Below, piece by piece: positions 17,577 through 45,181 of a stretch of 64,000 nt of DNA (positions are counted from its first letter, which is position 1; each line of letters begins with the position of its first letter). The stretch comes from Sphingopyxis sp. BE259 (GTDB taxonomy: Bacteria > Pseudomonadota > Alphaproteobacteria > Sphingomonadales > Sphingomonadaceae), in assembly GCF_031457495.1 (NCBI RefSeq), contig NZ_JAVDWM010000001.1, positions 1 through 64,000 on the forward strand, read 5' to 3'. The position numbers were made by a program, and so were the translations under genes. Under the pieces are notes generated by a model that was not told where the DNA came from, did not search any database, and saw only the letters and a list, made by a program, of their open reading frames with translations.

Positions 17577-17689
17577 TGGCCGATTGAACGCAGCCCGCGC
17601 AACATTTTACGCGCGGCGCCCTGCGAGCGTGTCGAACGGCGCTTGACCGCATCAAGATGCCCGTCTAATGCGCCGCTTCACCGAACGAC

Positions 17690-17765
17690 GGCCCCTTCGT
17701 CTAGCGGTCTAGGACGTCGCCCTTTCACGGCGAAAACACGGGTTCGAGTCCCGTAGGGGTCACCA
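17690..17765 (+). tRNA. tRNA-Glu (anticodon TTC)
   Basis: A 76-base cloverleaf with acceptor stem GGCCCCT/AGGGGTC, anticodon arm TCGCC-CTTTCAC-GGCGA (anticodon TTC), T arm ACGGG-TTCGAGT-CCCGT and an encoded CCA end. The tRNA would read GAA/GAG. Confidence 0.96.
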
Positions 17766-17816
17766 CGGTCAAGCGCGCGGTCGGCGGGCTTTCTTTCCGA
17801 AAATTTCCGACCCTGC

Positions 17817-17891
17817 GGCCCCTTCGTCTAGCGGTCAGGACGTCGCCCTCTCACGGCGAAAACACGGGTTCGATTCCCGTAGGGGTCACCA
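17817..17891 (+). tRNA. tRNA-Glu (anticodon CTC)
   Basis: A 75-base cloverleaf nearly identical to the tRNA 51 bases upstream. It differs by one base less in the D loop, by a single T-loop change and by the anticodon (CTC, reading GAG). CCA is encoded. The tandem pair looks like a duplication followed by anticodon change. The remaining space to the next gene (17892-18028) holds nothing recognisable. Confidence 0.96.
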
Positions 17892-18028
17892 GCGCCACGT
17901 CCCGCTTAAACTATCCTTCACAGCAACTCCGGGCATCCTGCCGCTCCGGCAGCAGCACCGGAAAATGGCGCGCCGAAGGGGTTGGCGACGACCCGTGCAC
18001 GCCGCCTTAACCCATCGCTCCCCCCCGA

Positions 18029-19111
18029 TTAATCGAGCGTCAGCGGCCCATGGTCGAGATGCGGCAGGACATGGCGCGCGAACAGGTCGCATTCGGCAGC
18101 GTGCGGATAGCCCGACAGGATGAAGGCATCGATGCCTTCGGCCTGATAGGCGCGCAGCTTGGCGAGTACCTGATCGGGATCGCCGACGATCGCCGCGCCG
18201 CAGCCCGAACGCGCCCTGCCGATCCCGGTCCACAGATTATCCTCCACAAATCCGTCGTCGCCCGCCGAGGCGCGCAATTCGGTCTGGCGCGCGACCCCGG
18301 CGGTCGCGGTATCGAGCGATTTCTGGCGAATCGCCTCGCCGACCCCGGCGTCGAGTTTCGAGAGCAGGCGGCCCGCGTAGGCGCGGGCTTCGGCCTCGGT
18401 CTCGCGGACGATGACATGGGCGCGATAGCCGAATTTCAGCTGGCGCCCTTTGGCCGCCGCACGCGCGGTCAGGTCGCCGACGACGTCGCGCACCTTGTCC
18501 ATCGTGTCAGGCCACATCAGATACACGTCCGCCGCTTCCGCCGCCGCGTCGCGCGCCGCGGGGCTGAGCCCGCCGAAATAGAGCGGCGGGCAGCGGCCCG
18601 ACACCGTCGTCATCCGCGGCGGGTCGAGCTCGAGATCGTAAAATTCGCCATGGTGCGACAGATGCTGCCCCGACAGCATCGTCTTCAGGATTTTCATCAC
18701 CTCGACCGTGCGTGCATAGCGCGGTTCGCTGTCGAGCGTCTGGCCCGGCAGGTCCGATGAGATGATGTTGACGGTCAGGCGGCCGCCCAGGATACGATCG
18801 AGGGTGGCGATGCGCCGCGCCAGCTGCGGCGGCCAGTCCTCGCCGATCCGCACCGCCATCAGCAGGCGCATCCGGTCGAGGAACGGCGCGATCGCCGCAG
18901 CGAACACCGTGGTGTCGAGCCCGAGCTGATAGCCCGACGGCAGCAATATATTGTCGAAACCGCCCTTTTCGGCGGTCAGAACGATATTGCGGCAATGCTC
19001 CCAGCTCGATTGCAGCATCGGATCGGGCTGGCCCAGAAATTCATAATCATCGTCGCACAGCGCCGAAAACCAGCTCACCTCGCACGGACGATGCGCTTCA
19101 CCCTGGGTCAT
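18029..19111 (-). CDS. FMNH2-dependent alkanesulfonate-type monooxygenase (probable sulfoquinovose monooxygenase)
   Basis: The 360-residue protein is a bacterial luciferase-like TIM-barrel monooxygenase of the SsuD group. Shared segments include AARRIATLDRILGGRL-like LARRIATLDRILGGR (about 98-110), PPLYFGGLS (about 175-183), FGYRAHVIVRETEAEA (about 227-242) and NLWTGIGRARSG, where Arg301 aligns with the flavin/substrate arginine of SsuD. The SsuD active-site cysteine position is Leu63, so the substrate pocket differs. It is the last gene of a GH31-lacI-aldo/keto reductase-monooxygenase operon and overlaps the previous stop by 4 bases. In the sulfo-SMO type pathways this enzyme turns sulfoquinovose into 6-oxo-glucose and sulfite. 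That function here is inferred from context. Confidence 0.88.
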   Translation of the reverse strand: MTQGEAHRPCEVSWFSALCDDDYEFLGQPDPMLQSSWEHCRNIVLTAEKGGFDNILLPSGYQLGLDTTVFAAAIAPFLDRMRLLMAVRIGEDWPPQLARRIATLDRILGGRLTVNIISSDLPGQTLDSEPRYARTVEVMKILKTMLSGQHLSHHGEFYDLELDPPRMTTVSGRCPPLYFGGLSPAARDAAAEAADVYLMWPDTMDKVRDVVGDLTARAAAKGRQLKFGYRAHVIVRETEAEARAYAGRLLSKLDAGVGEAIRQKSLDTATAGVARQTELRASAGDDGFVEDNLWTGIGRARSGCGAAIVGDPDQVLAKLRAYQAEGIDAFILSGYPHAAECDLFARHVLPHLDHGPLTLD

Positions 19112-20013
19112 GGCAATTTCTCTCCTCGCGCCGCGACGAACACGTCGTACCAGCTGGTCCGCGTCCAGCCGACGGCAAAGGCGTCGGCCGCCTCGGCGAT
19201 CCGCGCGACATTCTGCGTCCCGACGATCGGGATGGGCCGCGCCGGATGCGCCATCAGCCAGCTATACGCCGCCGCGGTGCGGCTGACCCCATGCGCCGCG
19301 GCCACGGCATCGAGCGCCGCGACGACCGCGCGTTCGCGGTCATTGGTCGGTTCGGCCAGACGCCCGCCGCCCAGCGGCGACCAGGCGAGCACCGCCATGC
19401 CCATCTGCATCGCCTGATCCAGTTCGCCATTTTCGAACGGGTCGATCCGCAAGGGAGACAGTTCGGGCTGGGTGCTGGCGAGCGGCACGTCGAGGAAATG
19501 CTGGAGCGCCGCGATCTGTGCCGGGGTGCAGTTGGACACGCCGATCGCACGGATTTTCCCGGCGGCCAGCGCCTTGTGCACCGCGCCCGCGACCTCCTGC
19601 GGATGGGTCAATATGTCGGGCCGGTGGACCTGCCACAGGTCGATGACGTCGGTCTGGAGCCGCTGCAGCGACGCATCGATCGCCTGCACCAGATAGGCGG
19701 CGCTGCTGTCGTACGGCAGCGGCGGCATGATCCCGCCCTTGCTGGCCAGCACCATGCGCCCGCGCAGGCCGGGATCGGCGGCGAACAGTTCGCCGAGCAG
19801 GCTTTCGGCGTCGCCAAAGCCGCCGCTGCCGTCAAAGCCATAGATGTCGGCAGTGTCGAACAGCGTAATCCCGATGTCGAGCGCCGCATCGACCAGTTGG
19901 CGGGCGGCGGCGGCGGGTCCGGCAAAGCGCCACATGCCCCACGCAAGCGAGGATATGGTGATGCCGCTCTGGCCGAGGGCGCGGGTGGTGGGGACGGCGG
20001 GAAGGTCGCTCAT
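19108..20013 (-). CDS. Aldo/keto reductase (probable 6-oxo-glucose reductase)
   Basis: The 301-residue TIM-barrel enzyme has the full AKR catalytic set: Asp53 and Tyr58 in FDTADIYGF, Lys92 in LASKGG, and His130 in WQVHRPD. The NADP-binding end is GTQNVARIAEAADAF. It belongs to the YdhF-like branch. It lies between the lacI regulator (15 bases upstream) and the monooxygenase (4-base overlap). In sulfoquinovose monooxygenase pathways an AKR reduces the aldehyde product to glucose; this assignment is by context. A general carbonyl reductase cannot be excluded. Confidence 0.87.
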   Translation of the reverse strand: MSDLPAVPTTRALGQSGITISSLAWGMWRFAGPAAAARQLVDAALDIGITLFDTADIYGFDGSGGFGDAESLLGELFAADPGLRGRMVLASKGGIMPPLPYDSSAAYLVQAIDASLQRLQTDVIDLWQVHRPDILTHPQEVAGAVHKALAAGKIRAIGVSNCTPAQIAALQHFLDVPLASTQPELSPLRIDPFENGELDQAMQMGMAVLAWSPLGGGRLAEPTNDRERAVVAALDAVAAAHGVSRTAAAYSWLMAHPARPIPIVGTQNVARIAEAADAFAVGWTRTSWYDVFVAARGEKLP

Positions 20014-20028
20014 ATACCAATCTATTCC

Positions 20029-21045
20029 TTATTGGGTCGCAGGATCGCGCACGCGGACCGAATCGCGCTCGACAAGGTCGTGTTGCAGACGGCGGTGGAC
20101 AAGATTTTGGCCGGTCAGCAGCAGGTCGGTGGCGGTGTGCGCCAGATCGAACACCGGCTGGCGGATCGTGGTCAGCGCAGGCCACACCATCCGCGCCAGT
20201 GTCGTATCGTCGAACCCCGCCACCGACAGGTCGTTTGGCAGATCGAACCCGGCACGGTGCGCCGCGGCCAGTACCCCGGCCGCCATATCGTCGTTTGCGG
20301 CAAAAATGGCGGTGGGGCGGTGCGGCATCAGCAAAAACCGCTCGCACGCCGCATAACCACTGTCGAAATCGAACAATCCGTCGGCGATCATCTGCGGTTC
20401 GAAAGGCAGCCCGGCGCGGTCGAGGGCGCGGCGATACCCGAACAATCGTTCGTCCGACGCCATATGATTGGGATGGCCCTTGATAAAGCCGATGCGGCGG
20501 TGCCCCATGTTGATGAGGTGGGTGGTCATGTCGTCGGCCGCCTGCGCGTCGTCCATGAACACCGACGACGTCATCGCGTGGTTGGTGCCCGGCGAGATGC
20601 GGACAAAGGGGATGCCAAGCTGTTCCAGCGTTCGCAGCACCGGGTCGCAATCGGTCACCGGCGACGACAGGATGATGCCGTCGACATGGGTTTCGCTGAC
20701 CAGTCCGCGCACCTGATCGCCGACGTCGGGATCGTCGACATCGACCGGCTGGCCAAGCAGGCGGATACCGTCCTGATGACAGCGCGCCCAGCACCCGGCC
20801 TGGATCTGGTTGATGTAATAGGGGCTGTGGTTGTCATAGATCAGCGCAATCTGCGCCGACTTGGTCCCGGCCAGGATGCGCGCCGCAACGCTGGGGCGAA
20901 ATTCCAGATCGCGGATCGCGGCTTCGACCTTTTTGCGGGTATCCTGGCTGACATAGGGATGGTCGTTGAGCACCCGGCTGACCGTCTTGACCGACACCCC
21001 GGCGCGCGCCGACACATCGCGGATATTGCTGCGCTGGCTCATCAA
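20029..21045 (-). CDS. LacI-family transcriptional regulator of the sulfosugar island
   Basis: The 338-residue protein has a LacI helix-turn-helix at its N-terminus (IRDVSARAGVSVKTVSRVLN, about 8-27), the hinge segment VAARILAGTKS, and a periplasmic-binding-protein-like effector domain ending near VAGFDDTTLARMVWPALTTI. It overlaps the GH31 gene by 4 bases (ATGATGAG; an ATG 3 bases downstream is also possible). Being inside the operon, it is likely to control it. The near-identical 19-bp palindromes at 23155 and 27244 are candidate operators. Confidence 0.92.
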   Translation of the reverse strand: MMSQRSNIRDVSARAGVSVKTVSRVLNDHPYVSQDTRKKVEAAIRDLEFRPSVAARILAGTKSAQIALIYDNHSPYYINQIQAGCWARCHQDGIRLLGQPVDVDDPDVGDQVRGLVSETHVDGIILSSPVTDCDPVLRTLEQLGIPFVRISPGTNHAMTSSVFMDDAQAADDMTTHLINMGHRRIGFIKGHPNHMASDERLFGYRRALDRAGLPFEPQMIADGLFDFDSGYAACERFLLMPHRPTAIFAANDDMAAGVLAAAHRAGFDLPNDLSVAGFDDTTLARMVWPALTTIRQPVFDLAHTATDLLLTGQNLVHRRLQHDLVERDSVRVRDPATQ

Positions 21046-23126
21046 ACAAGCTCCCCCCGCTGCACGGATAGCGACTCGAACACCGACGTAAAGGCGCTAC
21101 CGGCGCGATAAAAGACCGGCGGGGCACCAAAGGGCGCGGCGACGTTGTGCCATCCGGCGGCCATCGCCTCCCCGGTCCATACATCGATCCATGTCTCGCC
21201 CGCGGGGATCAGGACGTCGCGGTCAACCGCACCTTCGTGAAGGATCGGGGCCACCAGCAGATCGCCGCCGAGCAGATACTGATCCTCGCAGGCGTAGCAG
21301 GCTTCGGTCGGGTAATGCAGGAACAACGGGCGTTGCACGGGCAGTCCCAGGTCGGCGGCGTCATCGCACAGCGACCGCATATACGGGGCGAGCGCCGCGT
21401 GGACCCGCGTCATCGCCGCGAAATGATGCAGAATGTCGTCACTGCTGTCGATTTGCAGATTGTCGTCGGGGCGGTTGCCCTCATGCGTCCGCATCACCGG
21501 CGAAAATGCCCCCAGTTCGGCCCACCGCTTGAGCAGGTCGGCGGTGCGGACCAACCCGTGGAGCGACGTGTAGCCGCCGACGTCGCCGTGGCTATAGGCG
21601 TTGCCGACCAGCCCCGCGGACAGCGCCGCGGTGATCACTGTGCCGATCCCGTCGTGGCGCGAAAAATCGACGCACTGGTCGCCCGCCCACAGCAACGGAC
21701 AATGTGCCTGCACCCCACTATGCCCGGCGCGCATGAAGAACAGCGCCTCGCCGGTGAGCCCCCTGGCGGCGATCGCGCGGGCGTTGACCTCGGCCCACAG
21801 CACCGGCCAGCGATTATGCGCCAGCATCGGATCGCTGCCGTCGTAAAGCCGCAGGTCAGTCGGCAGATATTCGCCGAAATCGGCCATCCAGCCCGTCATG
21901 CCAATGTCCAGCATCTCGCGCCCGATGACCCGGTCGGCAAACCAGGCGGCGGCGGCGGGGTTGGTGAAATCGACGATCCCGCAGTCGAATTCGCCGAAAT
22001 CGACGACATAGACCTCGTCGCAGTCCAGCCGCAGCGCCAGCAGTCCCAGATCGCGCGCCTCGGCGAACATGCCGCCGTCAATCGCCAGATAAGGGTTCAC
22101 ATAGCCCAGAAAACGGACGCCGTCGGCGCGCAGCTTGGCGATCCGTTCGGGGAGGTCGGGGTAGCGCGCCGCGCTCCAGCGCCAGTCCCAGAACAGGCGG
22201 CGGCCAAAGCTGGTTTCGCGGATGCCGACCCAATCCTCACACCACAGCCCGGAAACCACCGCACCCGCGTCGCGAATGCGTTGCAGCCGGTCAAAACTCT
22301 GGATCCCCTGCTTCAGACCGATGATCGCGCCTTCCATCGCCCAATCGGGCAATTTCGGTTGCCGGCCAAAGCGGCTCGACACGATGCCGACCAGATCGGG
22401 CAAGCTGCTCGCAAAGCTGAACTCGATCCGACCGCGCCCTTCCCACCATGCGATCCGGTTCACCGCCGGATCGGTAAAATCGAGCACCGCATGAGCGGTG
22501 CTGGTCAAATGGCAGGCATAATGGTGCGACGACAGAAAGGTTGGCTGGGGGTAGTTGGTGGTCCAATAATCGCCGCCCGCCATCCCCTCGCGGTCCATGA
22601 TCTGCGTCAATTCGCGATCCTTGTCACGCCCCACCCCGGGTTCGCTGGTCCAGATCGGAAAACGGCGACCATTCAGGCGCAGATAACTCATCTGCTCGCC
22701 GCCGCCCCAAATATGTTCATCCGGCAGCGCCGCCAGATCGAGGGCCAGGCGATTGCAGGCCGGATCGTGGCTTTCGACGTCCAGCGCGAAGCCTTCGCCG
22801 AGCGGGACAAGGCTGAGCGTCACGCCCGGCGCCGCCCCCGCCTGCGGTCGCAGTTCGACCCGGTCGGGCAAGACATCGACGATCGGCAGGGACGCCAGAT
22901 CGGTGCACCTATCGTCCATCCGGAAATTGCCACGCACCATGACGACATCGGGGTCACCGATGGCGGCGGCAATCGCCGGGTCGGCGGCGCGGTGGCGCAG
23001 CAGGGTCATCGTGCCCGCGACCAGGTCGAACCCGCCTTTCTGTACTCGAAACTCCGCGTTCACGGTCGCTTCCCATCCCCCATCACCATGTTGCCATCGC
23101 GCCACAGGTCCCAAACAAAAGGCCAT
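21042..23126 (-). CDS. GH31 sulfoquinovosidase (YihQ/SmoI-like)
   Basis: The 694-residue protein is a glycoside hydrolase family 31 enzyme. It shows the residues that define sulfoquinovosidases: Arg310 and Trp313 in GRRLFWDWRW (YihQ Arg301/Trp304), nucleophile Asp416 in WMADFGEYLPTD (YihQ Asp405), acid/base Asp483 in WAGDQCVDF (Asp472) and Tyr519 in GDVGGYTSL (Tyr508). The offset from E. coli YihQ is a constant 9 then 11 residues. No signal peptide is seen, so it should work in the cytoplasm and release sulfoquinovose from its glycosides. It heads the leftward operon. The alternative calls of alpha-glucosidase or alpha-xylosidase are disfavoured by the sulfonate-binding triad. Confidence 0.93.
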   Translation of the reverse strand: MAFCLGPVARWQHGDGGWEATVNAEFRVQKGGFDLVAGTMTLLRHRAADPAIAAAIGDPDVVMVRGNFRMDDRCTDLASLPIVDVLPDRVELRPQAGAAPGVTLSLVPLGEGFALDVESHDPACNRLALDLAALPDEHIWGGGEQMSYLRLNGRRFPIWTSEPGVGRDKDRELTQIMDREGMAGGDYWTTNYPQPTFLSSHHYACHLTSTAHAVLDFTDPAVNRIAWWEGRGRIEFSFASSLPDLVGIVSSRFGRQPKLPDWAMEGAIIGLKQGIQSFDRLQRIRDAGAVVSGLWCEDWVGIRETSFGRRLFWDWRWSAARYPDLPERIAKLRADGVRFLGYVNPYLAIDGGMFAEARDLGLLALRLDCDEVYVVDFGEFDCGIVDFTNPAAAAWFADRVIGREMLDIGMTGWMADFGEYLPTDLRLYDGSDPMLAHNRWPVLWAEVNARAIAARGLTGEALFFMRAGHSGVQAHCPLLWAGDQCVDFSRHDGIGTVITAALSAGLVGNAYSHGDVGGYTSLHGLVRTADLLKRWAELGAFSPVMRTHEGNRPDDNLQIDSSDDILHHFAAMTRVHAALAPYMRSLCDDAADLGLPVQRPLFLHYPTEACYACEDQYLLGGDLLVAPILHEGAVDRDVLIPAGETWIDVWTGEAMAAGWHNVAAPFGAPPVFYRAGSAFTSVFESLSVQRGELV

Positions 23127-23154
23127 ATCGCGTCGTTACAACGGTCATTGTCTA

Positions 23155-23173
23155 TATGACACCGCTTGACATA
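23155..23173. promoter_or_regulatory. Candidate LacI-family operator, copy 1
   Basis: The 19-mer TATGACACCGCTTGACATA is an imperfect palindrome (arms TATG and CATA, plus the C/G and A/T pairs inside). It lies between the divergent GH31 operon (starting at 23126) and the TonB-dependent receptor gene (23267). It matches the site at 27244 at 16 of 19 positions, and the central CG is typical of LacI-family operators. The second half, TTGACA at 23166, could also serve as a -35 element. Confidence 0.65.
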
Positions 23174-23266
23174 TCAATCGTCATATTTCATTTCAGCAGC
23201 GGTTGAAGGCCAACAGGCCGCCGCCCGCGACATTCGCTCGGGCACCGATATTGGGAGGGATATGAC

Positions 23267-25579
23267 ATGAATCGCAAGTCCGAAATCACGACCCGCGCGC
23301 GCAAATTCTGGCTCGCCGGATCGGCGTCGCTGCTCGCGATCGGCGTGGCAACCCCCGCCGCGGCCCAGGTCGAAGAAATCATCGTAACGGCACAAAAAGT
23401 CGAGGAAAATGTGCAGGATGTGCCGATTTCGATCACCGCCGTCACCGGCGATCGGCTGATCCAGAGCGGCACCAGCAGCCTCGAGAATATCGGCGATCTG
23501 GTTCCTTCGGTCACCTTCCGCAAGGGCACGACCAGCGCCAACAGTGCGATCATCATGCGCGGCGTCGGCACCATCACCTTTTCGGTCGCGGCCGAACCCA
23601 GTGTGTCCACCGTTGTCGACGGCGTCGTGCTGAGTCGGTCGGGACAGGCGTTCAGCGATCTGCTCGACATCGACCGGATCGAGGTGCTGCGCGGGCCGCA
23701 GGGGACGCTGTTCGGCAAGAATGCGTCGGCCGGCCTCGTCAACATCGTGTCGAAAGGCGGCACCGACACACTCGAAGCCGATTTGCGCGGCGAATATTAT
23801 GAAGGCAGCGAATATCGCATCAAGGGATCGGTGTCGGGCCCGCTCGCGCCCGACCTGTCGGCGCGCGTCACCGGTTTTTACGGCAGCTATGACGGCAATA
23901 TCCGCAACGTCTTTTTCGACACCGACGTCAACGGCTATGAACATTATGGCGCGCGCGGCATCCTGGATTATGATGGCGACGGCGCCCGGCTGCGCTTCAT
24001 CGCCGATTATTTCAAGGCCAACGACGATTGCTGCGCCGACGTCACCGGGGTTAGCCGCGGCGCCGTGCTCGATGCCGAGCTGGGCTTTCCGGTCGCGCTT
24101 GGCACCGACCAGCGCACGGTCAATCACAATCTGATCACCCGCACCCGCGACAAGCAGTGGAGCCTGACCGGCAGCCTCGACCTCGACGTCCCCGGCGAGC
24201 ATGTGCTGAGCGTCATCCTGGGCTATCGCAACTGGCAGAACACCGAAATCCGCGAGGGCGATTTCCTGCCGCGCGCGATCGTCGGGACCAACGAACTGCA
24301 CGACAATGGCTTTGTCAAAACCGACCAGATGTCGGCGGAAATCCGCCTGTCGTCGGATCAGGCGATGCCGTTTTTCTATCAGGTCGGCACCTTCATCTGG
24401 CATTCGAACAACCAACAGGATTTCACCCGCCGCGACATCGTTTGCGCATCATCGACCCTGCCGCTGGCATCCAGCGGGGCGCGGCCGTGCAACCTTAATG
24501 ACCCGGTCAACACCACATATCCGACCGCGACGTCGTTCAGCGACGTCAACAGCAACAATTTCGCGGTGTTCGGCCAGGCAACCTATCGCCTGACCGAGCA
24601 GCTCAGCCTGACCGGCGGGCTGCGCTGGACGCGCGACACGCTGAGCTACACCCACACCCGCGCGCCCGGGGTCAACGCCGCCACAGGCCTGCCCCTGTCG
24701 GGGCCGGGCGTGTCGGGCAGCCCGGCGGGCGGCACCATCGCGGGCGGCGGCACGGGGCTCAACACCTCGAGCGGCAGCACCCAGAACAACAATATCTCGG
24801 GCAAGGCGTCGATCCAGTTCGAACCGAGTGACGACCTGTTATTCTATGGCAGTTTTACCCGCGGCTATAAGGGGCCGGCGTTCAATATCTTCTTCAACTA
24901 CACCGCGCCGACCAACGCGGTGCCGATCGACGAAGAATCGTCCGACGCCTATGAAGTGGGCGTGAAATCGCAGTTCTGGGATCGCCGTATCCAGTTCAAC
25001 GCCGCGTTGTTCCAGGCGACCTATGACGGGTTTCAGGCGAACAACTTCGTCCTCTTGAACGGCCAGATCATCACCAACCTGACCAACGCCGGGACGGTGC
25101 GGACCAAGGGCTTCGAAGTCGATACGATCATCGCGCCGGTCGATGGGCTGACCCTGCGCGGCAGCGTCGCCTATGCCGATGCCAAGGTACGCCGCTTCAA
25201 CCCCAATCCGCTGACCAACGCCCCCGACGCGCGCGACGGGACGCGCTTGCCGCTGGCTCCGAAGTGGAGCTGGAACGTCGGCGCCGATTATGAAACCCCG
25301 ATCGGCAGCGCGCTGAAATTCTTCGCCGGGACCAGCTACAGCTACACCGGCAAGCAATTTTCGGACCTGGGCGAAGGCGGGCCGCTGGACAGCTATGGCA
25401 TCTGGAATGCGTCGGTCGGGTTCAGCGACGCCGAAGAACTGTACCGCCTGACGTTCCATGCCCGCAACATCGGCGACAAAAGCTACGCGTTGCTGAACGT
25501 CGGCAATGGCCAACGCTATCAGATCCCGCGCGACGCCGACCGCTATTTCGGGGTCAGCCTAAGCGCCAAGATCCGCTGA
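23267..25579 (+). CDS. TonB-dependent outer-membrane receptor of the sulfosugar island
   Basis: The 770-residue protein has a signal peptide (cleavage near ATPAAAQ, residue 34), a TonB box-like EEIIVTAQK, a plug domain with EVLRGPQGTLFGKNASAGLV, and a 22-strand barrel ending in FGVSLSAKIR. GGGAGGG precedes the ATG by 8 bases. It is transcribed away from the GH31 operon with a shared 140-base regulatory gap. The expected role is uptake of sulfoquinovose glycosides (for example the glycerol form) across the outer membrane. Specificity is inferred from location. Confidence 0.92.
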   Translation: MNRKSEITTRARKFWLAGSASLLAIGVATPAAAQVEEIIVTAQKVEENVQDVPISITAVTGDRLIQSGTSSLENIGDLVPSVTFRKGTTSANSAIIMRGVGTITFSVAAEPSVSTVVDGVVLSRSGQAFSDLLDIDRIEVLRGPQGTLFGKNASAGLVNIVSKGGTDTLEADLRGEYYEGSEYRIKGSVSGPLAPDLSARVTGFYGSYDGNIRNVFFDTDVNGYEHYGARGILDYDGDGARLRFIADYFKANDDCCADVTGVSRGAVLDAELGFPVALGTDQRTVNHNLITRTRDKQWSLTGSLDLDVPGEHVLSVILGYRNWQNTEIREGDFLPRAIVGTNELHDNGFVKTDQMSAEIRLSSDQAMPFFYQVGTFIWHSNNQQDFTRRDIVCASSTLPLASSGARPCNLNDPVNTTYPTATSFSDVNSNNFAVFGQATYRLTEQLSLTGGLRWTRDTLSYTHTRAPGVNAATGLPLSGPGVSGSPAGGTIAGGGTGLNTSSGSTQNNNISGKASIQFEPSDDLLFYGSFTRGYKGPAFNIFFNYTAPTNAVPIDEESSDAYEVGVKSQFWDRRIQFNAALFQATYDGFQANNFVLLNGQIITNLTNAGTVRTKGFEVDTIIAPVDGLTLRGSVAYADAKVRRFNPNPLTNAPDARDGTRLPLAPKWSWNVGADYETPIGSALKFFAGTSYSYTGKQFSDLGEGGPLDSYGIWNASVGFSDAEELYRLTFHARNIGDKSYALLNVGNGQRYQIPRDADRYFGVSLSAKIR

Positions 25580-25603
25580 CCACGCAAGGTCGGCCAACAT
25601 AAA

Positions 25604-25641
25604 AGGGGCGCCGTGGTCACAAACCGCGGCGCCCCCTTTTT
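25604..25641 (+). terminator. Rho-independent terminator after the TonB-dependent receptor
   Basis: A 13-bp stem (GGGGCGCCGTGGT pairing with ACCGCGGCGCCCC, one G-T pair) with a CACAA loop is followed by six T. Confidence 0.93.
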
Positions 25642-25725
25642 TATGTGTGATGGCCAAACCACGCGAAGCGAAGCCATGACGATACCAGCTTAAGGTTGGC
25701 AGCTATCCCTTCGATCACGTATCTG

Positions 25726-25809
25726 TTCCCCGGCGAAAGCCGGTGGCCCAGAGCGTCAGAAACCGGCGTCCGCTTGCCAACGCCTTGGGCCCCGGCTTTC
25801 GCCGCGGAA
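25726..25809. repeat. Dispersed palindromic repeat (CCCCGGCGAAAGCCGG type, family D)
   Basis: The left arm TTCCCCGGCGAAAGCCGG and the right arm CCGGCTTTCGCCGCGGAA are inverse copies, separated by about 40 bases. It fills much of the 240-base gap between convergent genes; nothing else recognisable is in that gap. Confidence 0.7.
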
Positions 25810-25883
25810 TGGTCGCCTATTTGGCTCAAGGGGACAATTGCCGATAAGGTCACCCTTAATTGCCCCGTCATCAGCCGGAGGCG

Positions 25884-27143
25884 TTAACCCTCCTCGCTGT
25901 TCACCACCACCAGCCGCGGCTGCATCAGATGGATCCAGCCCAGCGCCAGCAGATAGGCACTCGCCGACATCAGGAACATCGGCGCATAGCCAAGCCCGGT
26001 ATCGAGCGCCCAACCGGTGAATTCCAGCATCGCCGCGCCCGACAGATTGCCCGCCAGCGCCCCCATCGCGATCACGCTGCCGACCTGACGCGCCGGGACG
26101 ATGTCGGCGGTCATGCCGAAAATGTTGGTCGAAAAGCCCTGATGCGCGAACAGTCCAAGGCCGATCACCAGGGCCGCGATCCACTGGTTCGGCGCCATCA
26201 GCGCCAGCGGCAGCGGCAGGATGAGCAGCGCATAAAAGAACATCGACGATTTGCGCGCCCGGTTCTCGCTGAGGCCGCGGCTGAGCAGCGCCGGAAACAG
26301 GAAGCCGCTCGACAGCGCGCCGGCCGCCGCCATGACATAGACGATCGCGGTCGGATAACCGATCTCCGCCTGCCCCAGCGAGAATTGGCGGGCAAAGAAA
26401 TCGGGGGCCCAGAACAGGATGAACCACCACACCAGATCGGTCAGCGTCTTGGCTCCGATGACCGCCAGGGTGCGCCGGTCCTTTATCAGCTTGCGCCACG
26501 GATCGGCGCGCTCCTGCGCCGCATCCGCCGTCGTTGGCGTGCCCACCGGGCGCAGCTTGGCGGTGCCGAGCCACCAGAAGAACAGCCAGACAAAGCCCAG
26601 CGCGCCGGTGATCAGGAACGCCGCCTGCCAGCCGAGCGCCAAGGCCAGCACCGGGACCGCCAGCGGCGCCAGAATCGCCCCAATGTTCGACGCGCTGTTG
26701 ATCACGCCAAGCCCGACCGAACGTTCCTTGACCGGCAGATAGGTTGCCGCCGCCTTGATCGCCGCGGGGGTGTTGACCGATTCCGCCACCGCCAGCGCAA
26801 CGCGTGCCGCGACAAATTGCTGGACGCTGGCCGCCAGCGCATGGGCCATCCCCGCCAGACTCCAGATACCGACGGCAAGGCCATAGCCCCAGCGGACCCC
26901 GACCCGGTCGATGAACCAGCCGACGCCGAGCAGCGAAAATGCCGCCGCAATCTGGAACGACGAGCCAAAATGCGCGAAATCCTGGTCGCTCCACTGGAAG
27001 TCGGCCTGCAACATCGGCTTGAGCAGCGCGAGCACCTGGCGGTCGAGATAATTGAGCGCAGTGCCGAAAAAGATCAGTGCGATCAGGCCGATACGAATGG
27101 CACGCTGTGCTGCGTCGGTTCTCGATACGCTAGTGTCAGCCAT
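25884..27143 (-). CDS. MFS transporter, anion:cation symporter type (probable sulfosugar importer)
   Basis: The 419-residue protein has the twelve-helix major-facilitator layout. Family motifs include NYLDRQVLALLKPML (first helix and loop), GWFIDRVGVRWGYGLAVGIW (about 75-94) and a helix beginning ARVALAVAESVNTPAAIKAAATYLP. The pattern is that of the hexuronate/galactonate (ACS) branch, which carries acidic sugars. It is divergent from the FMN reductase operon; the gap holds the second 19-bp palindrome. Sulfoquinovose or its glycosyl glycerol form is a plausible substrate by context only. Confidence 0.88.
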   Translation of the reverse strand: MADTSVSRTDAAQRAIRIGLIALIFFGTALNYLDRQVLALLKPMLQADFQWSDQDFAHFGSSFQIAAAFSLLGVGWFIDRVGVRWGYGLAVGIWSLAGMAHALAASVQQFVAARVALAVAESVNTPAAIKAAATYLPVKERSVGLGVINSASNIGAILAPLAVPVLALALGWQAAFLITGALGFVWLFFWWLGTAKLRPVGTPTTADAAQERADPWRKLIKDRRTLAVIGAKTLTDLVWWFILFWAPDFFARQFSLGQAEIGYPTAIVYVMAAAGALSSGFLFPALLSRGLSENRARKSSMFFYALLILPLPLALMAPNQWIAALVIGLGLFAHQGFSTNIFGMTADIVPARQVGSVIAMGALAGNLSGAAMLEFTGWALDTGLGYAPMFLMSASAYLLALGWIHLMQPRLVVVNSEEG

Positions 27144-27243
27144 GTCGGCCCTCCCTCTCAGGGCCGCACGCTATGGGCTGCGCGTCGACCGTTCTAGCCC
27201 AATTAAGGCTTGCGTTGCGCCATTTCAAAGGCCTAGAGAATCG

Positions 27244-27262
27244 TATGACACCGTGAGACATA
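27244..27262. promoter_or_regulatory. Candidate LacI-family operator, copy 2
   Basis: The 19-mer TATGACACCGTGAGACATA is an imperfect palindrome that shares its first ten and last six bases with the site at 23155. It lies in the divergent gap between the MFS gene (27143, leftward) and the FMN reductase gene (27322, rightward). The shared site suggests that the LacI regulator controls all four transcripts of the island. Confidence 0.65.
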
Positions 27263-27321
27263 AGGCAAGCCGCTTTGCCGTCCGCGTTGGCGCGTTACCG
27301 ACGAAAGCAGGAGCCCGGACC

Positions 27322-27876
27322 ATGAGATCGATCGTTGCGCTTGGCGGCACGCCGCGTCCCGGGTCATCGACCGAAAAGATACTGGAGATCTGCTGCCGCG
27401 CCGCCGCAGCGGAGGGCGCTGCGATCACCCGGTTTGATGGCGCCTATATGAGCGCCCTGCCCTATTACCGCGGCCCGGGCCACAATGACCAGGCGGGTGC
27501 CGAAATGGTCGCCGCCGTCCGCGATGCCGACGGTTTGATCATCGCCTCGCCCGGCTATCACGGCAGCATTTCAGGGCTGGTCAAAAACGCCCTCGACTAT
27601 TTCGAGGATCTATCGACCGACGCGCGCCCCTATTTCCACGGTCGCCCGGTCGGTCTGATCGCGACCGCGTTCGGCCATCAGGCCGCGATGAGCACCTTGC
27701 TGACCCTACGCAGCATCACTCATGCTCTGCGCGGGTGGCCGACACCGATCGGCGCCGCGATCCGCACGACCCCTGAAACCTTTGACGACCTGGGCGAAAT
27801 CCTGGACGTCGGGGCGCGGATGCAGCTGGAATTGGTCGGCAAACAGGTCGTCGGAGCGGCGGGCATCCTGTCATGA
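27322..27876 (+). CDS. NADPH-dependent FMN reductase (SmoA/SsuE-type)
   Basis: The 184-residue flavodoxin-fold enzyme has the phosphate loop GGTPRPGSSTEKILEICC (about 8-25) and the flavin-binding segment ASPGYHGSISGLVKNALDYF (about 75-94) typical of FMN reductases. It would supply FMNH2 to the luciferase-type monooxygenase of the island. An AGGAG site precedes the ATG by 8 bases. Its last codons overlap the RibB-like gene (ATGA). Confidence 0.92.
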   Translation: MRSIVALGGTPRPGSSTEKILEICCRAAAAEGAAITRFDGAYMSALPYYRGPGHNDQAGAEMVAAVRDADGLIIASPGYHGSISGLVKNALDYFEDLSTDARPYFHGRPVGLIATAFGHQAAMSTLLTLRSITHALRGWPTPIGAAIRTTPETFDDLGEILDVGARMQLELVGKQVVGAAGILS

Positions 27877-28478
27877 ACGCCTTCGGCGACAGCGCGCTGG
27901 ACGCCATTGGCCAGCATCTGGCGGACGGCGGGCTGATCATATTGGCGGGCGACGCGCTGCGCGATGGCGACCTCGACTTTGCGATGGCGGCAAGCCGGGT
28001 GACACCGCAGGCGATCAATTTCATGGCGCGCCATGGCCGCGGCCTGATCTGCCTGGGACTGACCCAGCCGCGGGCGTGGAAATTGGGGATCACACCACAA
28101 AACAGCGGCGAAGGCGGCGACAGCGGGCGACCGTTCGGGGTGTCGATCGAAGCACGACATGGTGTCGAAACCGGAATTTCGGCGCATGATCGCGCGCACA
28201 CCATCGCGGTCGCCATGGCGCCCGATGCGCGCGCCGCCGATCTGGTCAAACCCGGCCATGTCTTTCCGCTGATCGCGAATCCGGAGGGCCTTGCCGCCCG
28301 ACGCTCGACGCTCGAGGCGGGGATCGCGCTATGCGATCGTTTCGATCTGGGGGAAGGCGTCGTGCTGTGCGCGATCATGCGCGACGACGGCACGATGGCG
28401 CGCCGCGCCGACATGGAAGGTTTCGCCACCGAGCATGACACGCCGATCGTCGACATCGGCAATCTGCTCGTTGGATAG
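27873..28478 (+). CDS. RibB-like (DHBP synthase fold) protein lacking catalytic residues
   Basis: The 201-residue product aligns along its whole length with 3,4-dihydroxy-2-butanone 4-phosphate synthase (RibB). Matching segments include TPQAINFMARHGRGLICLGL, TGISAHDRAHTI, KPGHVFPL and RDDGTMAR. Yet the catalytic sites differ. The acidic ENEGD loop reads LRDGD (Glu to Asp31), the His of the GHTEA motif is Thr146, and the Glu of the final ICE-type motif is Ala167. It is therefore unlikely to make DHBP, at least by the normal mechanism. It is coupled to the FMN reductase upstream and the exporter downstream, so it could bind flavin precursors, or act on a sugar intermediate. Function unknown. 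Confidence 0.85.
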   Translation: MNAFGDSALDAIGQHLADGGLIILAGDALRDGDLDFAMAASRVTPQAINFMARHGRGLICLGLTQPRAWKLGITPQNSGEGGDSGRPFGVSIEARHGVETGISAHDRAHTIAVAMAPDARAADLVKPGHVFPLIANPEGLAARRSTLEAGIALCDRFDLGEGVVLCAIMRDDGTMARRADMEGFATEHDTPIVDIGNLLVG

Positions 28479-29541
28479 CAAGCGTCGGACGGCGCGGGTC
28501 GGCGCCGACCTTTACGGCGAAATCTGGCTCGCCGACGCGACGTCCCGCGCGGCACGATCGTCGGTCAAATTGTGGCTTCCCGGCCTTTGCGTCATCGCCA
28601 TCGCAGCGGCGGCGGCGGCGTGGCTGTCCGACCATTATGCCATGCCGATCATTCTGGCCGGTTTGCTGATCGGACTCGCACTCAATTTTCTGGCCGCCAA
28701 TCCGCGCCTGCATCCCGGCATGGACCTGTGCGGCACGGCGGGACTGCGGTGGGGGATTGTGCTGCTCGGCACGCAGGTGACGGCGGCGCAAATCGCCACG
28801 CTGGGAGTCGCCAGCTTTGTCGCCTTGATCGTGATCGTAGCGCTGGTCCTTGCCGCTGGTCTGGTCGGGGCGCGGCTGAGCGGCGACAGCCGCTTCGTCG
28901 GCCTGCTGGCGGGCGGCGCGACCGCGATCTGCGGCGCATCGGCGGCCTTGGCGATCTACGCCGTGATCGGGCGCGAGCGGCTGGACCAGCACCGCTTTAC
29001 CTTTACCTTGGTTGGGATTTCGCTCGCCAGTGCCATTGCAATGTCCTTTTATCCCGTGCTCGCAGCGCAATTTCACTTCACCGACCGCCAGGCCGGATTT
29101 CTGATGGGCGCCGCCATTCACGACGTCGCCCAGTCGCTGGGCGCGGGATACAATTATTCGGCGGGGGCCGGCGAAGTGGCGGCGATCGTCAAGCTCACCC
29201 GGGTGGCTTTGCTGGCGCCGGTGGTGGCGGTGCTGGCGCTGATCGTCGGCCGCTCAGATCAAGCGGTGCGGCGGCGTTTCGAACCGCTGGGGATGCCATG
29301 GTTCATCTGGGCCTTTTTGGCGGTGGTCTTGGCCGGATCGCTTTTCCCACTGCCCGCATGGCTCAAGGATTATGGCCTGTTGGCGTCGAAAGCGCTGCTG
29401 TTGTTTGCGGTCATCGCGACGGCGATGCGGTCCCGGCTCGACACCTTGCTGTCGGACGGTTGGCGGGGGCTTATCCCGATCCTGGTCGCGACCCTGGTCT
29501 CGCTGTTCGCCGCATTCGGTTTTGCGTGGCGATACCTCTGA
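28471..29541 (+). CDS. YeiH/UPF0324 family exporter (possible sulfite exporter)
   Basis: The 356-residue protein has about ten membrane helices and the family signatures GGATAICGASAALAI (about 150-164) and AIHDVAQSLGAGYNYS (about 213-228). The family is annotated as putative sulfate exporters. In this operon the expected toxic product is sulfite, so export of sulfite is a reasonable guess. The start is uncertain: TTG at 28471 overlaps the previous stop by 8 bases and gives a family-normal length, while an ATG at 28435 would add 12 residues. Confidence 0.82.
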   Translation: MDSKRRTARVGADLYGEIWLADATSRAARSSVKLWLPGLCVIAIAAAAAAWLSDHYAMPIILAGLLIGLALNFLAANPRLHPGMDLCGTAGLRWGIVLLGTQVTAAQIATLGVASFVALIVIVALVLAAGLVGARLSGDSRFVGLLAGGATAICGASAALAIYAVIGRERLDQHRFTFTLVGISLASAIAMSFYPVLAAQFHFTDRQAGFLMGAAIHDVAQSLGAGYNYSAGAGEVAAIVKLTRVALLAPVVAVLALIVGRSDQAVRRRFEPLGMPWFIWAFLAVVLAGSLFPLPAWLKDYGLLASKALLLFAVIATAMRSRLDTLLSDGWRGLIPILVATLVSLFAAFGFAWRYL

Positions 29542-29569
29542 CCTCAGTGTTGGCGGAGCCTATGACAAT

Positions 29570-30217
29570 TTACGGCCGCTCATAGCGATTGTCGGCGACG
29601 AGTTGCCAGCAGGTTTCGGTCGGATAGAGCAAGAGCTGGCCATCAACCCGGCCACCAGCGTCATAGGGTTGACCGTCCAGATCGACAGCTTGGCCCAGAT
29701 CGTCGCCGCCTTCCGATTTCCCGTCATAATGGACGCGCGTCCACTCGACCGAAATCTGGTTGCTCTGGCTCTGGTTGAATTGCAGGATGACATGCTCGTC
29801 GGTGTCACCGGGGCGCGCCGGAACGACGCTTTGGCGATAATGATCCACCATCTTGATCGGAAAGTCGCTGTAGTCGGACGCCGCGATCTTTTTCGTTTCG
29901 ATCGCGGTGTAGGGCGTTCGCGCCGCATCGTAACGGACGACGTCGATCTTCGCCGCCGAATAGGTCCGGCGCACCGCCACCGACGCGATCATCGCATCGA
30001 AAAAGGCCTTATAGTCTTCCGCTTTGCACGCCGAACCGGCCGCGGCGAGCATGATCGCGTCGGTTTCGTCCGGAGCGGTTGGCGCAGGAGCCGTTGGCGC
30101 AGCCGACACAGTGGCGGCGACAGGCACCATTTCGTCGTCGTCGGCCGCCGCCGCGCCACCGGGTGCGCCGCACGCGGCAAGGGTAATCAGCGTCAGGGCG
30201 GCAAGCGTGGGGCGCAT
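29570..30217 (-). CDS. Lipoprotein of unknown function
   Basis: The 215-residue protein starts with a lipoprotein signal (LITLAAC, lipid Cys16), followed by an Ala/Pro/Thr-rich linker (about 20-48) and a soluble domain of unknown family with two further cysteines (Cys65 region and Cys near LYPTETCWQL). The domain has alternating strands, such as VILQFNQSQSNQISVEWTRV. It is convergent with the exporter and divergent from the LuxR-type gene. It is probably not part of the sulfosugar island. Confidence 0.75.
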   Translation of the reverse strand: MRPTLAALTLITLAACGAPGGAAAADDDEMVPVAATVSAAPTAPAPTAPDETDAIMLAAAGSACKAEDYKAFFDAMIASVAVRRTYSAAKIDVVRYDAARTPYTAIETKKIAASDYSDFPIKMVDHYRQSVVPARPGDTDEHVILQFNQSQSNQISVEWTRVHYDGKSEGGDDLGQAVDLDGQPYDAGGRVDGQLLLYPTETCWQLVADNRYERP

Positions 30218-30445
30218 GGTCGCGATACTCCTTCATATTTCAGACAAGGCTATGACGTTGAACGCGAAATGAAAAGCGCTGGCGGCCGCGGATGTATCGG
30301 TACGGCCACGCGCCAATCGTCGCGAACTCCCCAGCGCTGGGCAATCGCGGCCCGCGCACCGGTTCATTTCAACTCGATCCGCATCGGCGCCGATGCCGCG
30401 CGATCCGCGCTGTTCGCGGTCGCGCGGTCGCGCCAGACGGGACGT

Positions 30446-31099
30446 GTGAGCGATTTCGCGGCCCATATCCACCTTGTCCTGCCCGACCCGACCGAGCGCA
30501 CCGCCTGTTTTCGCGCGCTGTCGGGGGACGGGAACCGCATCGTGCGCAGCTTTGCCAACGGCGATGCATGGCTGGATGCTGATGGCGATAGCGGCGGCGC
30601 GATTCTGGTCTTTCGCTGGTACCAACCGGGCCGGATCGACGGCGCGGCGCTGCTCGACAGGATCGCCGCGCGTGACGACATCGCCGCCTTTGTCGTCGCC
30701 GAACAGCTGAGCATCGCCGAATCGCGCGCGATCCTGCGCGGCGGTGCGCGCGATCTGCTGCCCGCGCCGCTCGATCCGCGCGTTGTTTGCCGCGCCATCG
30801 ATGCCCAACTGGGGGACTGGACGGCGCAGCGCGCGGCGCAGCGCAAGCGCCGCGACGCCGCGGCGCGGCTGGCGGCGCTGACCCCGCGTGAGCGCGACAT
30901 ATTGGAGGCGATCGCGGCGGGGCTGGGGAACAAGGCGATCGCGCGGCAACTGGATTTGAGCCCGCGGACGGTCGAGGTGCACCGCGCCAACATCATGCGG
31001 CGCGCCGGGGCGAGCAATGTCGCCGAACTGCTGCGGTTGCAGTTTACCGCCGAACAGGCGCGCGGCGCGGCAGGCAATCCGGTCCATTATGGCGCATGA
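30446..31099 (+). CDS. LuxR-type response regulator with degenerate receiver domain
   Basis: The 217-residue protein has a receiver-like N-terminal half and a LuxR helix-turn-helix at about 145-205 (LTPRERDILEAIAAGLGNKA and LSPRTVEVHRANIMRRAG). In the receiver the phosphate-accepting aspartate position reads Arg57 (ILVFRWYQPG), the Thr position reads Val84 and the Lys position Ala107. It should therefore not be phosphorylated in the normal way. The GTG start at 30446 is chosen because it begins just before the first receiver strand; an ATG at 30269 would add a 59-residue basic extension. The target genes are unknown. Confidence 0.72.
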   Translation: MSDFAAHIHLVLPDPTERTACFRALSGDGNRIVRSFANGDAWLDADGDSGGAILVFRWYQPGRIDGAALLDRIAARDDIAAFVVAEQLSIAESRAILRGGARDLLPAPLDPRVVCRAIDAQLGDWTAQRAAQRKRRDAAARLAALTPRERDILEAIAAGLGNKAIARQLDLSPRTVEVHRANIMRRAGASNVAELLRLQFTAEQARGAAGNPVHYGA

Positions 31100-31239
31100 T
31101 CCACCGACCGCGCGGCCAAGGTCGCGCCATGCCGTCTATAAGGACGATGAACGGCGCCCCGCCCTTGTGTTGGTCCCCATGGGCGCTGCCGTTCATCCGC
31201 AACGGGTCAACCCCACCTGACCCCGCGCAACCGACAGGG

Positions 31240-31268
31240 CCGGCAGAGGATGTTCCTTCCTCTGCCGG
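31240..31268. terminator. Stem-loop between convergent genes, possible terminator
   Basis: CCGGCAGAGGA and TCCTCTGCCGG pair perfectly over 11 bases with a 7-base loop. No clear T run follows on either strand, so termination is only inferred from its place between the rightward LuxR-type gene and the leftward acyltransferase gene. Confidence 0.5.
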
Positions 31269-31286
31269 TTCTATCCGTGGCCGCCT

Positions 31287-32336
31287 TTACGCCCCAACGA
31301 CCATCGCGCGCTGATCGGCGCGGCCCATCGCGAGCACGACCGGATCGGTCGCCTGTCGCGCCGCGAAATCGGCCTTGCTGGCGATCCCCTGCCAGCCGAT
31401 GCCGATCAGCGCCTGCGCGATCGCGCCGCCCAGCGTGTCGCCGGGGCCGGGCAGGATGATGACGTCGGGGGCAAATTCCCTGACCGCGACCTGCACGGAT
31501 AGCGCAAAGTCATAAGGCGCGAGGATCTGGTCGCCGAAGGTATAATCCCACACGGCGGCCGGGTCTGACGCGAAACGGCGCCAGATATGGCCGCGGCCAT
31601 CGACCATCGGCAGCGTCGGCGCGCCGAACAGCGCGGGCGGCAATTCGGCCTTTGCCTTGTCTGAGCTGCCGAACATCAGCGGGGTGTGGAACGGGCCATG
31701 CCCCGCGAGGCGCAGCGGATCGCGGCCGGGGATCGACGGCGCTTCGGCGAGCAGCGCGGCGAGGCCCGCCTCATTGCCCGCGAAGACGAGCATCCCGGCG
31801 AGGTCGATCGACAGCGCGAGGGCGTTGTCGGGGCGCGACGCGATGGCAGCGGCGAGGTTGAGGAGCTGCTCGCGAAGGCCGGGAACGGGGCGCCAATCCT
31901 CATCGACGACTTGCAGCAAAATCTGGCCGCCGGGGCCGTGCGTCTGGCTGTTAAGCCCCATCGCGTTGCTGATGCGGAAACCATCCTCGACCGACACCGC
32001 ACCGCCGAGCGCCAGCGCGCTGTACCACCCCATCGAATTGCCCGCGACGCCGACGATGTCATAGGCGTCGCGGTCGATGCTGAGAAAATCGAGCGCGGTC
32101 GCGGTGTAGATCAGCGGCGCCGCGACATCGCCGCGCATATGCGTCGCGACGCTGAAGCGGTCGGCACCGTCAAGTTCGGTCACCGTCGGCTGGCCGCGTT
32201 CACGGCGCTGGGTATCGAAATTGGCAATGAGGTCCGCGAAGCGCGCGCCATGAAGCCGCGCGATGCTGCCGAGCTCGTTCTTGCCATAGGTGCCGCGCCC
32301 CGGAGCGACGACGAGCGCAGTTTTGCGGGCGCTCAT
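31287..32336 (-). CDS. FabD-like (malonyl-CoA:ACP) acyltransferase domain protein
   Basis: The 349-residue protein has the FabD-type alpha/beta hydrolase core with nucleophile Ser101 in VAGNSMGWYSAL and the catalytic histidine around residue 216 in GHGPFHTPLMF. It would transfer acyl groups from CoA to a carrier. It differs from housekeeping FabD in being larger and in its location: the ATG overlaps the stop of the fused E1 dehydrogenase gene (ATGA), so both are made together. No acyl-carrier or ketosynthase gene is nearby, so the acceptor is unknown. Confidence 0.85.
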   Translation of the reverse strand: MSARKTALVVAPGRGTYGKNELGSIARLHGARFADLIANFDTQRRERGQPTVTELDGADRFSVATHMRGDVAAPLIYTATALDFLSIDRDAYDIVGVAGNSMGWYSALALGGAVSVEDGFRISNAMGLNSQTHGPGGQILLQVVDEDWRPVPGLREQLLNLAAAIASRPDNALALSIDLAGMLVFAGNEAGLAALLAEAPSIPGRDPLRLAGHGPFHTPLMFGSSDKAKAELPPALFGAPTLPMVDGRGHIWRRFASDPAAVWDYTFGDQILAPYDFALSVQVAVREFAPDVIILPGPGDTLGGAIAQALIGIGWQGIASKADFAARQATDPVVLAMGRADQRAMVVGA

Positions 32337-34540: not shown

Positions 34541-34714
34541 CCTCCCCTTCGGCCCTGCCTAAGTGTGGCGGCTGGTTACCCGCGCGACCATCGGACCCGT
34601 GCGTCCGCGCGCTATAACGGGGCAGACCGGTACGCAAGCATCTCTTGCCTTGGCGCGCCGCCTCGCGCTACCAACGGTGCTGATGAGCGACCGGGGCGGA
34701 ACCAATATTTCAAC

Positions 34715-41504: not shown

Positions 41505-41506
41505 GG

Positions 41507-42013: not shown

Positions 42014-42051
42014 CGCAGCGGCGCCCCGCCTGAGCAAGGTGACGGCTGGAC

Positions 42052-42498: not shown

Positions 42499-42511
42499 GC
42501 CCTGAATCTAG

Positions 42512-45181
<2,670 letters not shown>

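Follow-up and report, generated by a model that had tools for sequence, protein, structure and literature searches.

Sulfoquinovose (SQ) is a plant sulfosugar. The sulfo-ASMO pathway of Novosphingobium aromaticivorans, with the proteins SquD and SquF, was reportedly described by Liu et al. 2021. According to PMC9594981 and PMC12890257, the monooxygenase (SMO) pathway is known from Agrobacterium and from N. aromaticivorans. Here, a window of 64,000 nucleotides from Sphingopyxis sp. BE259 (assembly GCF_031457495.1, contig NZ_JAVDWM010000001.1, positions 1 to 64,000) was analysed, in which nine adjacent genes at 18029-29541 almost certainly constitute a sulfo-SMO/ASMO island. The island itself is one more member of this already known pathway, and what is new in it is a conserved, predicted pseudoenzyme, the RibB-like protein RibBL, together with a strongly conserved operator. 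A reading that combines the sulfo-SMO island, its control by a LacI-type regulator through two operators and a catalytically dead RibBL is very likely correct, any flavin role of RibBL being left out of that judgement.

Results

All nine genes were found to be open, and each product scored above the Pfam cut-off for its family, in agreement with the first-pass annotation, which had assigned nine adjacent genes to one SQ pathway. By layout the genes form four transcription units, namely GH31-LacI-aldo/keto reductase-SmoC (minus strand), the TonB-dependent receptor (plus), the MFS transporter (minus) and flavin mononucleotide (FMN) reductase-RibBL-YeiH (plus), and 4-bp overlaps join SmoC to the aldo/keto reductase gene, LacI to GH31 and the FMN reductase gene to RibBL. 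Substrates and directions of transport, here and below, are predicted from sequence.

The putative SQ monooxygenase (SmoC/SquD-like; 18029..19111, minus strand; Pfam Bac_luciferase), which would cleave the C-S bond of SQ to give sulfite and 6-dehydroglucose, was nearest among solved structures to 7olf (367 bits; 53% identity over 342 residues) and 7oh2 (353 bits; 54.5% over the 244 residues compared), followed by 7jv3 (208 bits) and SsuD (1nqk/1m41, 186 bits). The PDB titles of 7olf and 7oh2 name a methanesulfonate sulfonatase and an alkanesulfonate monooxygenase; we take the two to be SQ monooxygenases, one from Rhizobium and one from Agrobacterium, and 7jv3 to be MsuD. Clustering with unrelated luciferase-like families, raised in the first-pass annotation as the outcome that would speak against its proposal, was not seen by these scores (no tree was built). 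Relatives of SmoC at 68-72% identity, nearer than 7oh2, were present on at least six Rhizobium plasmids among the matches listed, and a second luciferase-family protein is encoded elsewhere in the BE259 genome (G000:C1:1953192-1954046).

The GH31 sulfoquinovosidase (21042..23126, minus strand) exceeded the cut-off of NCBIfam NF007746 (841.6 vs 553 bits) in addition to that of Pfam GH31, and scored 818-820 bits against 5ohs/5ohy (820 to 5ohy), which we take to be the Agrobacterium enzyme. All seven sulfoquinovosidase residues checked were identical (K245, E270, R283, W286, Y491, the acid/base D455 and the nucleophile Asp), the sulfonate-binding K/E/R/W/Y set and D455 being given in Agrobacterium numbering. 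Together with the nearest structures of the monooxygenase, these residues support the monooxygenase type of SQ desulfonation proposed at first pass. The aldo/keto reductase (SmoB/SquF-like; 19108..20013, minus strand; Aldo_ket_red PF00248), a predicted 6-dehydroglucose reductase whose gene adjoins that of the monooxygenase, had 7bbz/7bby, presumably Agrobacterium SmoB, as its best solved relatives. In PMC13372026, a genome in which SmoB and SmoC are both present is scored as SMO-positive.

The NAD(P)H:FMN reductase (27322..27876, plus strand; PF03358, FMN_red), a predicted supplier of reduced FMN (FMNH2), scored 37.9 bits, far under the 164 bits required by the SsuE equivalog. A flavin reductase of the SsuE type, or of PF01613, the family of Agrobacterium SmoA (the proteins of that system being named SmoA to SmoI), was not found in the cluster, and the only PF01613 copy in the genome lies at 2.08 Mb. 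Among 298 genomes of the same family, 78 encoded SmoC at E <= 1e-60; in 20 of these 78 that were chosen, a PF01613 protein occurred in 17 and was absent from three, and a location near SmoC was rejected, because the nearest copy lay about 65 kb away (G012).

The remaining pathway genes encode a TonB-dependent receptor (23267..25579, plus strand; Pfam), predicted to take up SQ glycosides across the outer membrane; an MFS transporter (25884..27143, minus strand; Pfam), a predicted inner-membrane importer whose best NCBIfam matches, all below cut-off, are sugar-acid and organophosphate carriers; and a YeiH-type membrane protein (28498..29541, alternative TTG start at 28471, plus strand; over the PF03601 cut-off), a predicted sulfite exporter. 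We take the product of cuyZ to be a PF03601 member as well. In PMC4334477, cuyZ is annotated as a sulfite exporter. Two observations weigh against the pathway assignment: the similarity of the aldo/keto reductase to the SmoB structures is moderate (176 bits), and the YeiH-type protein stays below the NCBIfam cut-off (TIGR00698, 100 vs 232.6 bits).

Neighbouring genes were counted at those of the best 80 named loci, 46 in all, in which the sequence extends 9 kb or more to either side of the monooxygenase. The aldo/keto reductase and the TonB receptor were present in all 46, LacI in 41, GH31 in 38, MFS in 29, YeiH in 24, the FMN reductase in 10 and RibBL in eight. The recurrence of this gene set indicates that the grouping in BE259 is not due to chance. 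The receptor and the MFS carrier occurred together in 29 of the 46. The gene set of BE259 recurs in culturable relatives, namely Sphingopyxis jiangsuensis (L062), Tsuneonella litorea (L038), Novosphingobium kunmingense (L063) and Parerythrobacter lacustris (L054). Ten named loci have 9 kb of sequence upstream of SmoC but no GH31, and eight of these encode a GFO/IDH/MocA-family protein (PF01408, one member having been checked by Pfam). Several SmoC clusters contain GlpD, GlpK or a protein of the sulfite-oxidase type, which fits SQ-glycerol as a substrate; the GlpD homologue of BE259 lies elsewhere in the genome, at 3201900.

RibBL (27873..28478, plus strand) belongs to the DHBP synthase family (DHBP_synthase, PF00926) at 181 bits, and a canonical RibB copy in the same genome, at 75288, scored 280 bits. 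In an alignment of 37 rows (BE259 and 36 loci, at least one genome appearing twice as L054/L208), numbered according to E. coli RibB, His153 was replaced by Ala or Thr, Glu174 by Ser or Ala and Asn39 by Gly in all 37 rows, and Glu38 was lost in 36. Arg37, Arg150, His136, Asp113, Arg114 and Thr117 were retained in every row, and Asp42 in 36 of 37. In the fungal enzyme ZtDHBPS, as described in PMC12268802, R34 and R147 are the phosphonate-binding residues and E35 and H150 the ligands of the magnesium ions; these four were equated by motif with Arg37, Arg150, Glu38 and His153. Since the metal ligands Glu38 and His153 of DHBP synthases are lost, RibBL was not filed as a DHBP synthase. Arginines were also gained, at BE259 RibBL residue 86 (36/36 rows vs 0/31 canonical sequences, all 31 with Thr) and at residue 170 (35/36 vs 1/31).

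A predicted model of RibBL (predicted local distance difference test score 86.9, under 50 in the loop 78-88 that holds Arg86) has the DHBP synthase fold, matching 7uez with template-modelling scores of 0.83/0.85. In a tree, 35 RibBL rows fell on one side of a branch with support 100/100 (the bootstrap had not settled), and on these alignments RibBL is a monophyletic group. The proteins encoded directly before YeiH in BE259, L001, L205, L214 and L217 cluster as one clade, which a long branch (1.3) sets apart. The ratio of nonsynonymous to synonymous substitution rates (dN/dS) was 0.09-0.12 in seven of nine RibBL pairs, with dS from 0.27 to 1.83 and above 1.5 in five of the seven. A decaying passenger gene was rejected on the ratio of about 0.1 in these seven pairs, many with high dS, and on the retention of RibBL in 24 genomes. 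Taken together, these data make it highly probable that RibBL is a conserved pseudoenzyme rather than a DHBP synthase; the RibB-like assignment made at first pass was right as to family and fold, and the catalytic residues of RibB are lost. No description of RibBL was found in the open-access literature searched, PMC13372026 included, a search that did not extend to Liu et al. 2021.

At E <= 1e-70, RibBL was found in 24 of the 298 family genomes, all 24 of which have SmoC and a high-scoring adjacent FMN reductase (co-occurrence P = 5e-16, kinship ignored). SmoC and RibBL lay on the same stretch in 23 of the 24 (BE259 and 22 fetched regions), and in G116 they were on split contigs; a few RibBL genes may have been missed, as G007 has a 135-aa match in a broken assembly. 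RibBL followed the FMN reductase gene in 36 of 36 loci, and its operon context was of three kinds. In 30 of the 36 a RibBL start lying 4 bp within the reductase gene was available, and in 35 one between -4 and +1. Three placements of RibBL were seen: behind SmoC, behind YeiH-GlpD, and immediately in front of YeiH, the last in BE259, L001, L205, L214, L217 and L223. GlpD stands directly before the FMN reductase-RibBL pair in most RibBL clusters (L200-L223, L231; not BE259, L204 or L205), and some contain GlpK or sulfite-oxidase-type genes. GlpD-FMN reductase pairs also occur in L197, L198 and L199, from genomes without SmoC or RibBL; in L199 the pair and YeiH adjoin PAPS-reductase, APS-kinase/GTPase and inositol-phosphatase-family genes.

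In a search of 385 genomes of the class, BE259 RibBL reached 328 bits, compared with 224 in the genome ranked second, and 29 top loci from this search grouped with canonical RibB when aligned. A search of 388 genomes of the phylum at a threshold of 1e-68 gave three hits, all in family members. No RibBL-like score was found outside the family in these two samples, which are thin and both include family members, and within the same thin samples the idea that RibBL accompanies flavin monooxygenases in general was rejected. The 296 plasmid records matched by RibBL were all below 60% identity, and the annotated ones listed were RibB, RibBA or bifunctional synthases.

A 19-bp operator, TATGACACCG-N3-GACATA, was common to both divergent intergenic regions, which between them serve all four transcripts. 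Copy A, TATGACACCGCTTGACATA (23155..23173, plus strand), lies between the GH31 and TonB receptor genes, and copy B, TATGACACCGTGAGACATA (27244..27262, plus strand), between the MFS and FMN reductase genes. An exact looser form, TATGACA-N6-GACATA, occurred in the 3.67 Mb genome only at 23155 and 27244; with up to two mismatches, this looser form gave 17 matches genome-wide, the control giving 8; among the 17 was the reverse reading of site A. Because the pattern was derived from the two BE259 sites, these are no test of it. The relatives are, although their counts are inflated by close genomes: a site with up to two mismatches was present in 66 of 70 distinct GH31/TonB receptor regions (missing in L007, L008, L017 and L020) and in 23 of 26 MFS/YeiH-or-FMN reductase regions (missing in L007, L008 and L023), whereas the pattern read backwards never had fewer than four mismatches there.

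The LacI gene was kept in the operator-carrying clusters. At the four FMN reductase loci without SmoC, no site under four mismatches was found, and an operator there was rejected: only three matches had four mismatches, and in no case did one immediately precede GlpD or the reductase. Except in L221, whose contig breaks off too soon to judge, the positions of RibBL fit operator-controlled units. These data argue strongly for one LacI regulon, in which the LacI-family regulator (20029..21045, minus strand; LacI Pfam) is predicted to bind both operator copies, and a single LacI-type repressor acting on the two would control all four transcripts. The operator could serve to search sphingomonad genomes for the SQ regulon.

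The left border of the island is the 3' end (17891) of the second of two tRNA-Glu genes, tRNA-Glu(ttc) and tRNA-Glu(ctc) (17690..17891, plus strand). Of 40 genomes from the genus, 38 (BE259 among them) matched the DNA left of the island, and the best left-flank matches of 37 relatives stopped at 17891-17893 in 17, at 17765-17768 (the end of the first tRNA) in 15 and earlier in five. The right flank resumed at 30378-30457 in five of seven fetched regions, after 1.2, 3.1, 6.2, 11.4 or 12.0 kb of other DNA, and resumption was not seen in L250 and the short L255. The island probably extends from 17892 to about 30.4 kb, and a gene for a hypothetical protein (29570..30217, minus strand; no family over cut-off) probably lies within its right end. 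The tRNA-Glu pair, which follows a gene that we take from its sequence to be recJ-like, is an insertion locus that varies within the genus, and the island is horizontally variable. Its G+C content is 64.7%, with 66.1 and 65.6 in the flanks. At the SmoC border of L001 (Sphingopyxis sp. L1A2A), 17 nt of the tRNA-Glu 3' end lie within a 19-nt identical stretch (11216-11234) where no tRNA gene was found, and this piece looks like an attachment-site remnant; in L250 the tRNA end occurs once more, at 2528. That the right border of the BE259 island holds an exact duplicate of the tRNA end was rejected (no common 14-mer between 17601-18030 and 29401-45000), and no integrase was seen among the Pfam-annotated island genes.

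Discussion

The proposed pathway would run as follows. SQ glycosides would enter through the TonB receptor and then the MFS carrier, and the GH31 enzyme would free SQ from them. The FMN reductase and the SmoC-type monooxygenase would split SQ oxidatively into sulfite and 6-dehydroglucose, the latter being turned into glucose by the aldo/keto reductase, and the YeiH-type protein would export the sulfite.

The ribityl phosphate of FMN resembles ribulose-5-phosphate, the substrate of RibB. Since RibBL has kept the phosphate-binding arginines, has lost the metals and would be made in step with the FMN reductase, it is most simply viewed as a flavin-binding helper of that reductase, which could bind FMN or FMNH2 at the ribityl-phosphate end and assist in loading, holding or handing over flavin between reductase and monooxygenase. 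This flavin role, with its predicted FMN/FMNH2 binding, is put forward tentatively. The more specific proposal of a dead flavin carrier, which would hold FMN(H2) in the old ribulose-5-phosphate pocket and, protecting reduced flavin against oxygen, convey it from the reductase to the SQ monooxygenase, is rather more doubtful; if true, it would add a third component to monooxygenases known as two-component systems. How reduced flavin is delivered to such monooxygenases is still debated, and RibBL, a conserved pseudoenzyme tied to the SQ pathway, is a concrete candidate for this delivery.

Several findings count against the place given to RibBL here. RibBL was below threshold in 54 of the 78 SmoC genomes, so the pathway needs no RibBL, and G112 and G010 have a related FMN reductase close to SmoC and no RibBL. 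In four genomes that lack both SmoC and RibBL the high-scoring FMN reductase is present, in three of them beside GlpD, so the reductase is not strictly the partner of SmoC. Thr154, whose fungal counterpart Thr151 also touches the phosphonate, was present in only two of the 37 RibBL rows. With respect to conservation, the pair L205/L217 was saturated and BE259/L219 gave a dN/dS of 0.46, other genes of the latter pair being high as well (0.23-0.45).

Binding of SQ or of sulfite are the main alternatives, because a sulfonate or sulfate can fill a phosphate site. RibBL might bind SQ, 6-dehydroglucose or another sulfonated or phosphorylated sugar, as a mutarotase, isomerase or scavenger, its tie to the reductase being a matter of operon history. 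In that case the sulfonate would take the place of the phosphate, in keeping with the retained and the additional arginines, with the sulfate held by solved DHBP synthases (titles of 3lrj and 3ls6) and with the confinement of RibBL to SmoC genomes (24/24). Its invariable position after the FMN reductase in three operon contexts (36/36 loci), and its absence from 54 of 78 SmoC genomes, speak against such sugar binding and leave it unlikely. A sulfite- or sulfate-binding or regulatory subunit, tied to the exporter or to reductase activity and without flavin, is improbable: DHBP synthase structures with sulfate exist and RibBL directly precedes YeiH in the six loci named above, but at the other RibBL loci YeiH stands upstream or in another place, or was not seen.

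With respect to the island as a whole, a substrate other than SQ, such as sulfofucose or an alkanesulfonate, could be suspected, because the monooxygenase family acts on many sulfonates and the best NCBIfam match of the BE259 protein is TIGR03565 (SsuD), at 248.7 bits far below the cut-off of 518.2; this is very improbable, given a GH31 enzyme that has the whole sulfoquinovosidase residue set and passes NF007746, and given 7olf and 7oh2 as the nearest structures. That RibBL is an active second RibB raising the riboflavin supply of a flavin-dependent pathway, plausible from its family, its fold and the flavin demand, was rejected as scarcely credible, because the metal site is gone (Glu38 in 36 of 37 rows, His153 in all 37) and the genome already has a canonical copy.

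Compared with the sulfo-SMO system of Agrobacterium tumefaciens, BE259 has a homologous monooxygenase, aldo/keto reductase and GH31 enzyme, and the flavin reductase family differs, being PF03358 in BE259 and PF01613 for SmoA. The ABC transporter that PMC9594981 gives for Agrobacterium is replaced in BE259 by the TonB receptor and MFS carrier. This difference, pointed out at first pass, is real but not specific to the strain, as the pair is found in 29 of the 46 well-flanked loci. The sulfo-ASMO pathway of N. aromaticivorans is, according to PMC9594981 and PMC12890257, likewise that of a sphingomonad and was found through sulfoquinovosidase gene clusters; as in BE259, flavin-dependent C-S cleavage yields sulfite and 6-dehydroglucose, which an aldo/keto reductase converts to glucose. 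The Novosphingobium pathway, to which the first-pass annotation referred together with that of Agrobacterium, is already published (PMC9594981). The same source reports the N. aromaticivorans cluster without SsuE, whereas BE259 has the PF03358 FMN reductase and RibBL; a clustered reductase of the SmoA or SsuE type is therefore not pathway-defining. GH188 enzymes (SqgA) occur in SMO clusters according to PMC10755693, and the GH31-less relatives' loci with a PF01408 protein (8/10) may be likened to these, whereas BE259 uses GH31. Finally, RibBL shares with DHBP synthases their fold and phosphate-binding arginines, and differs from them in having lost the metal ligands and conserved acidic residues and in having gained arginines of its own.

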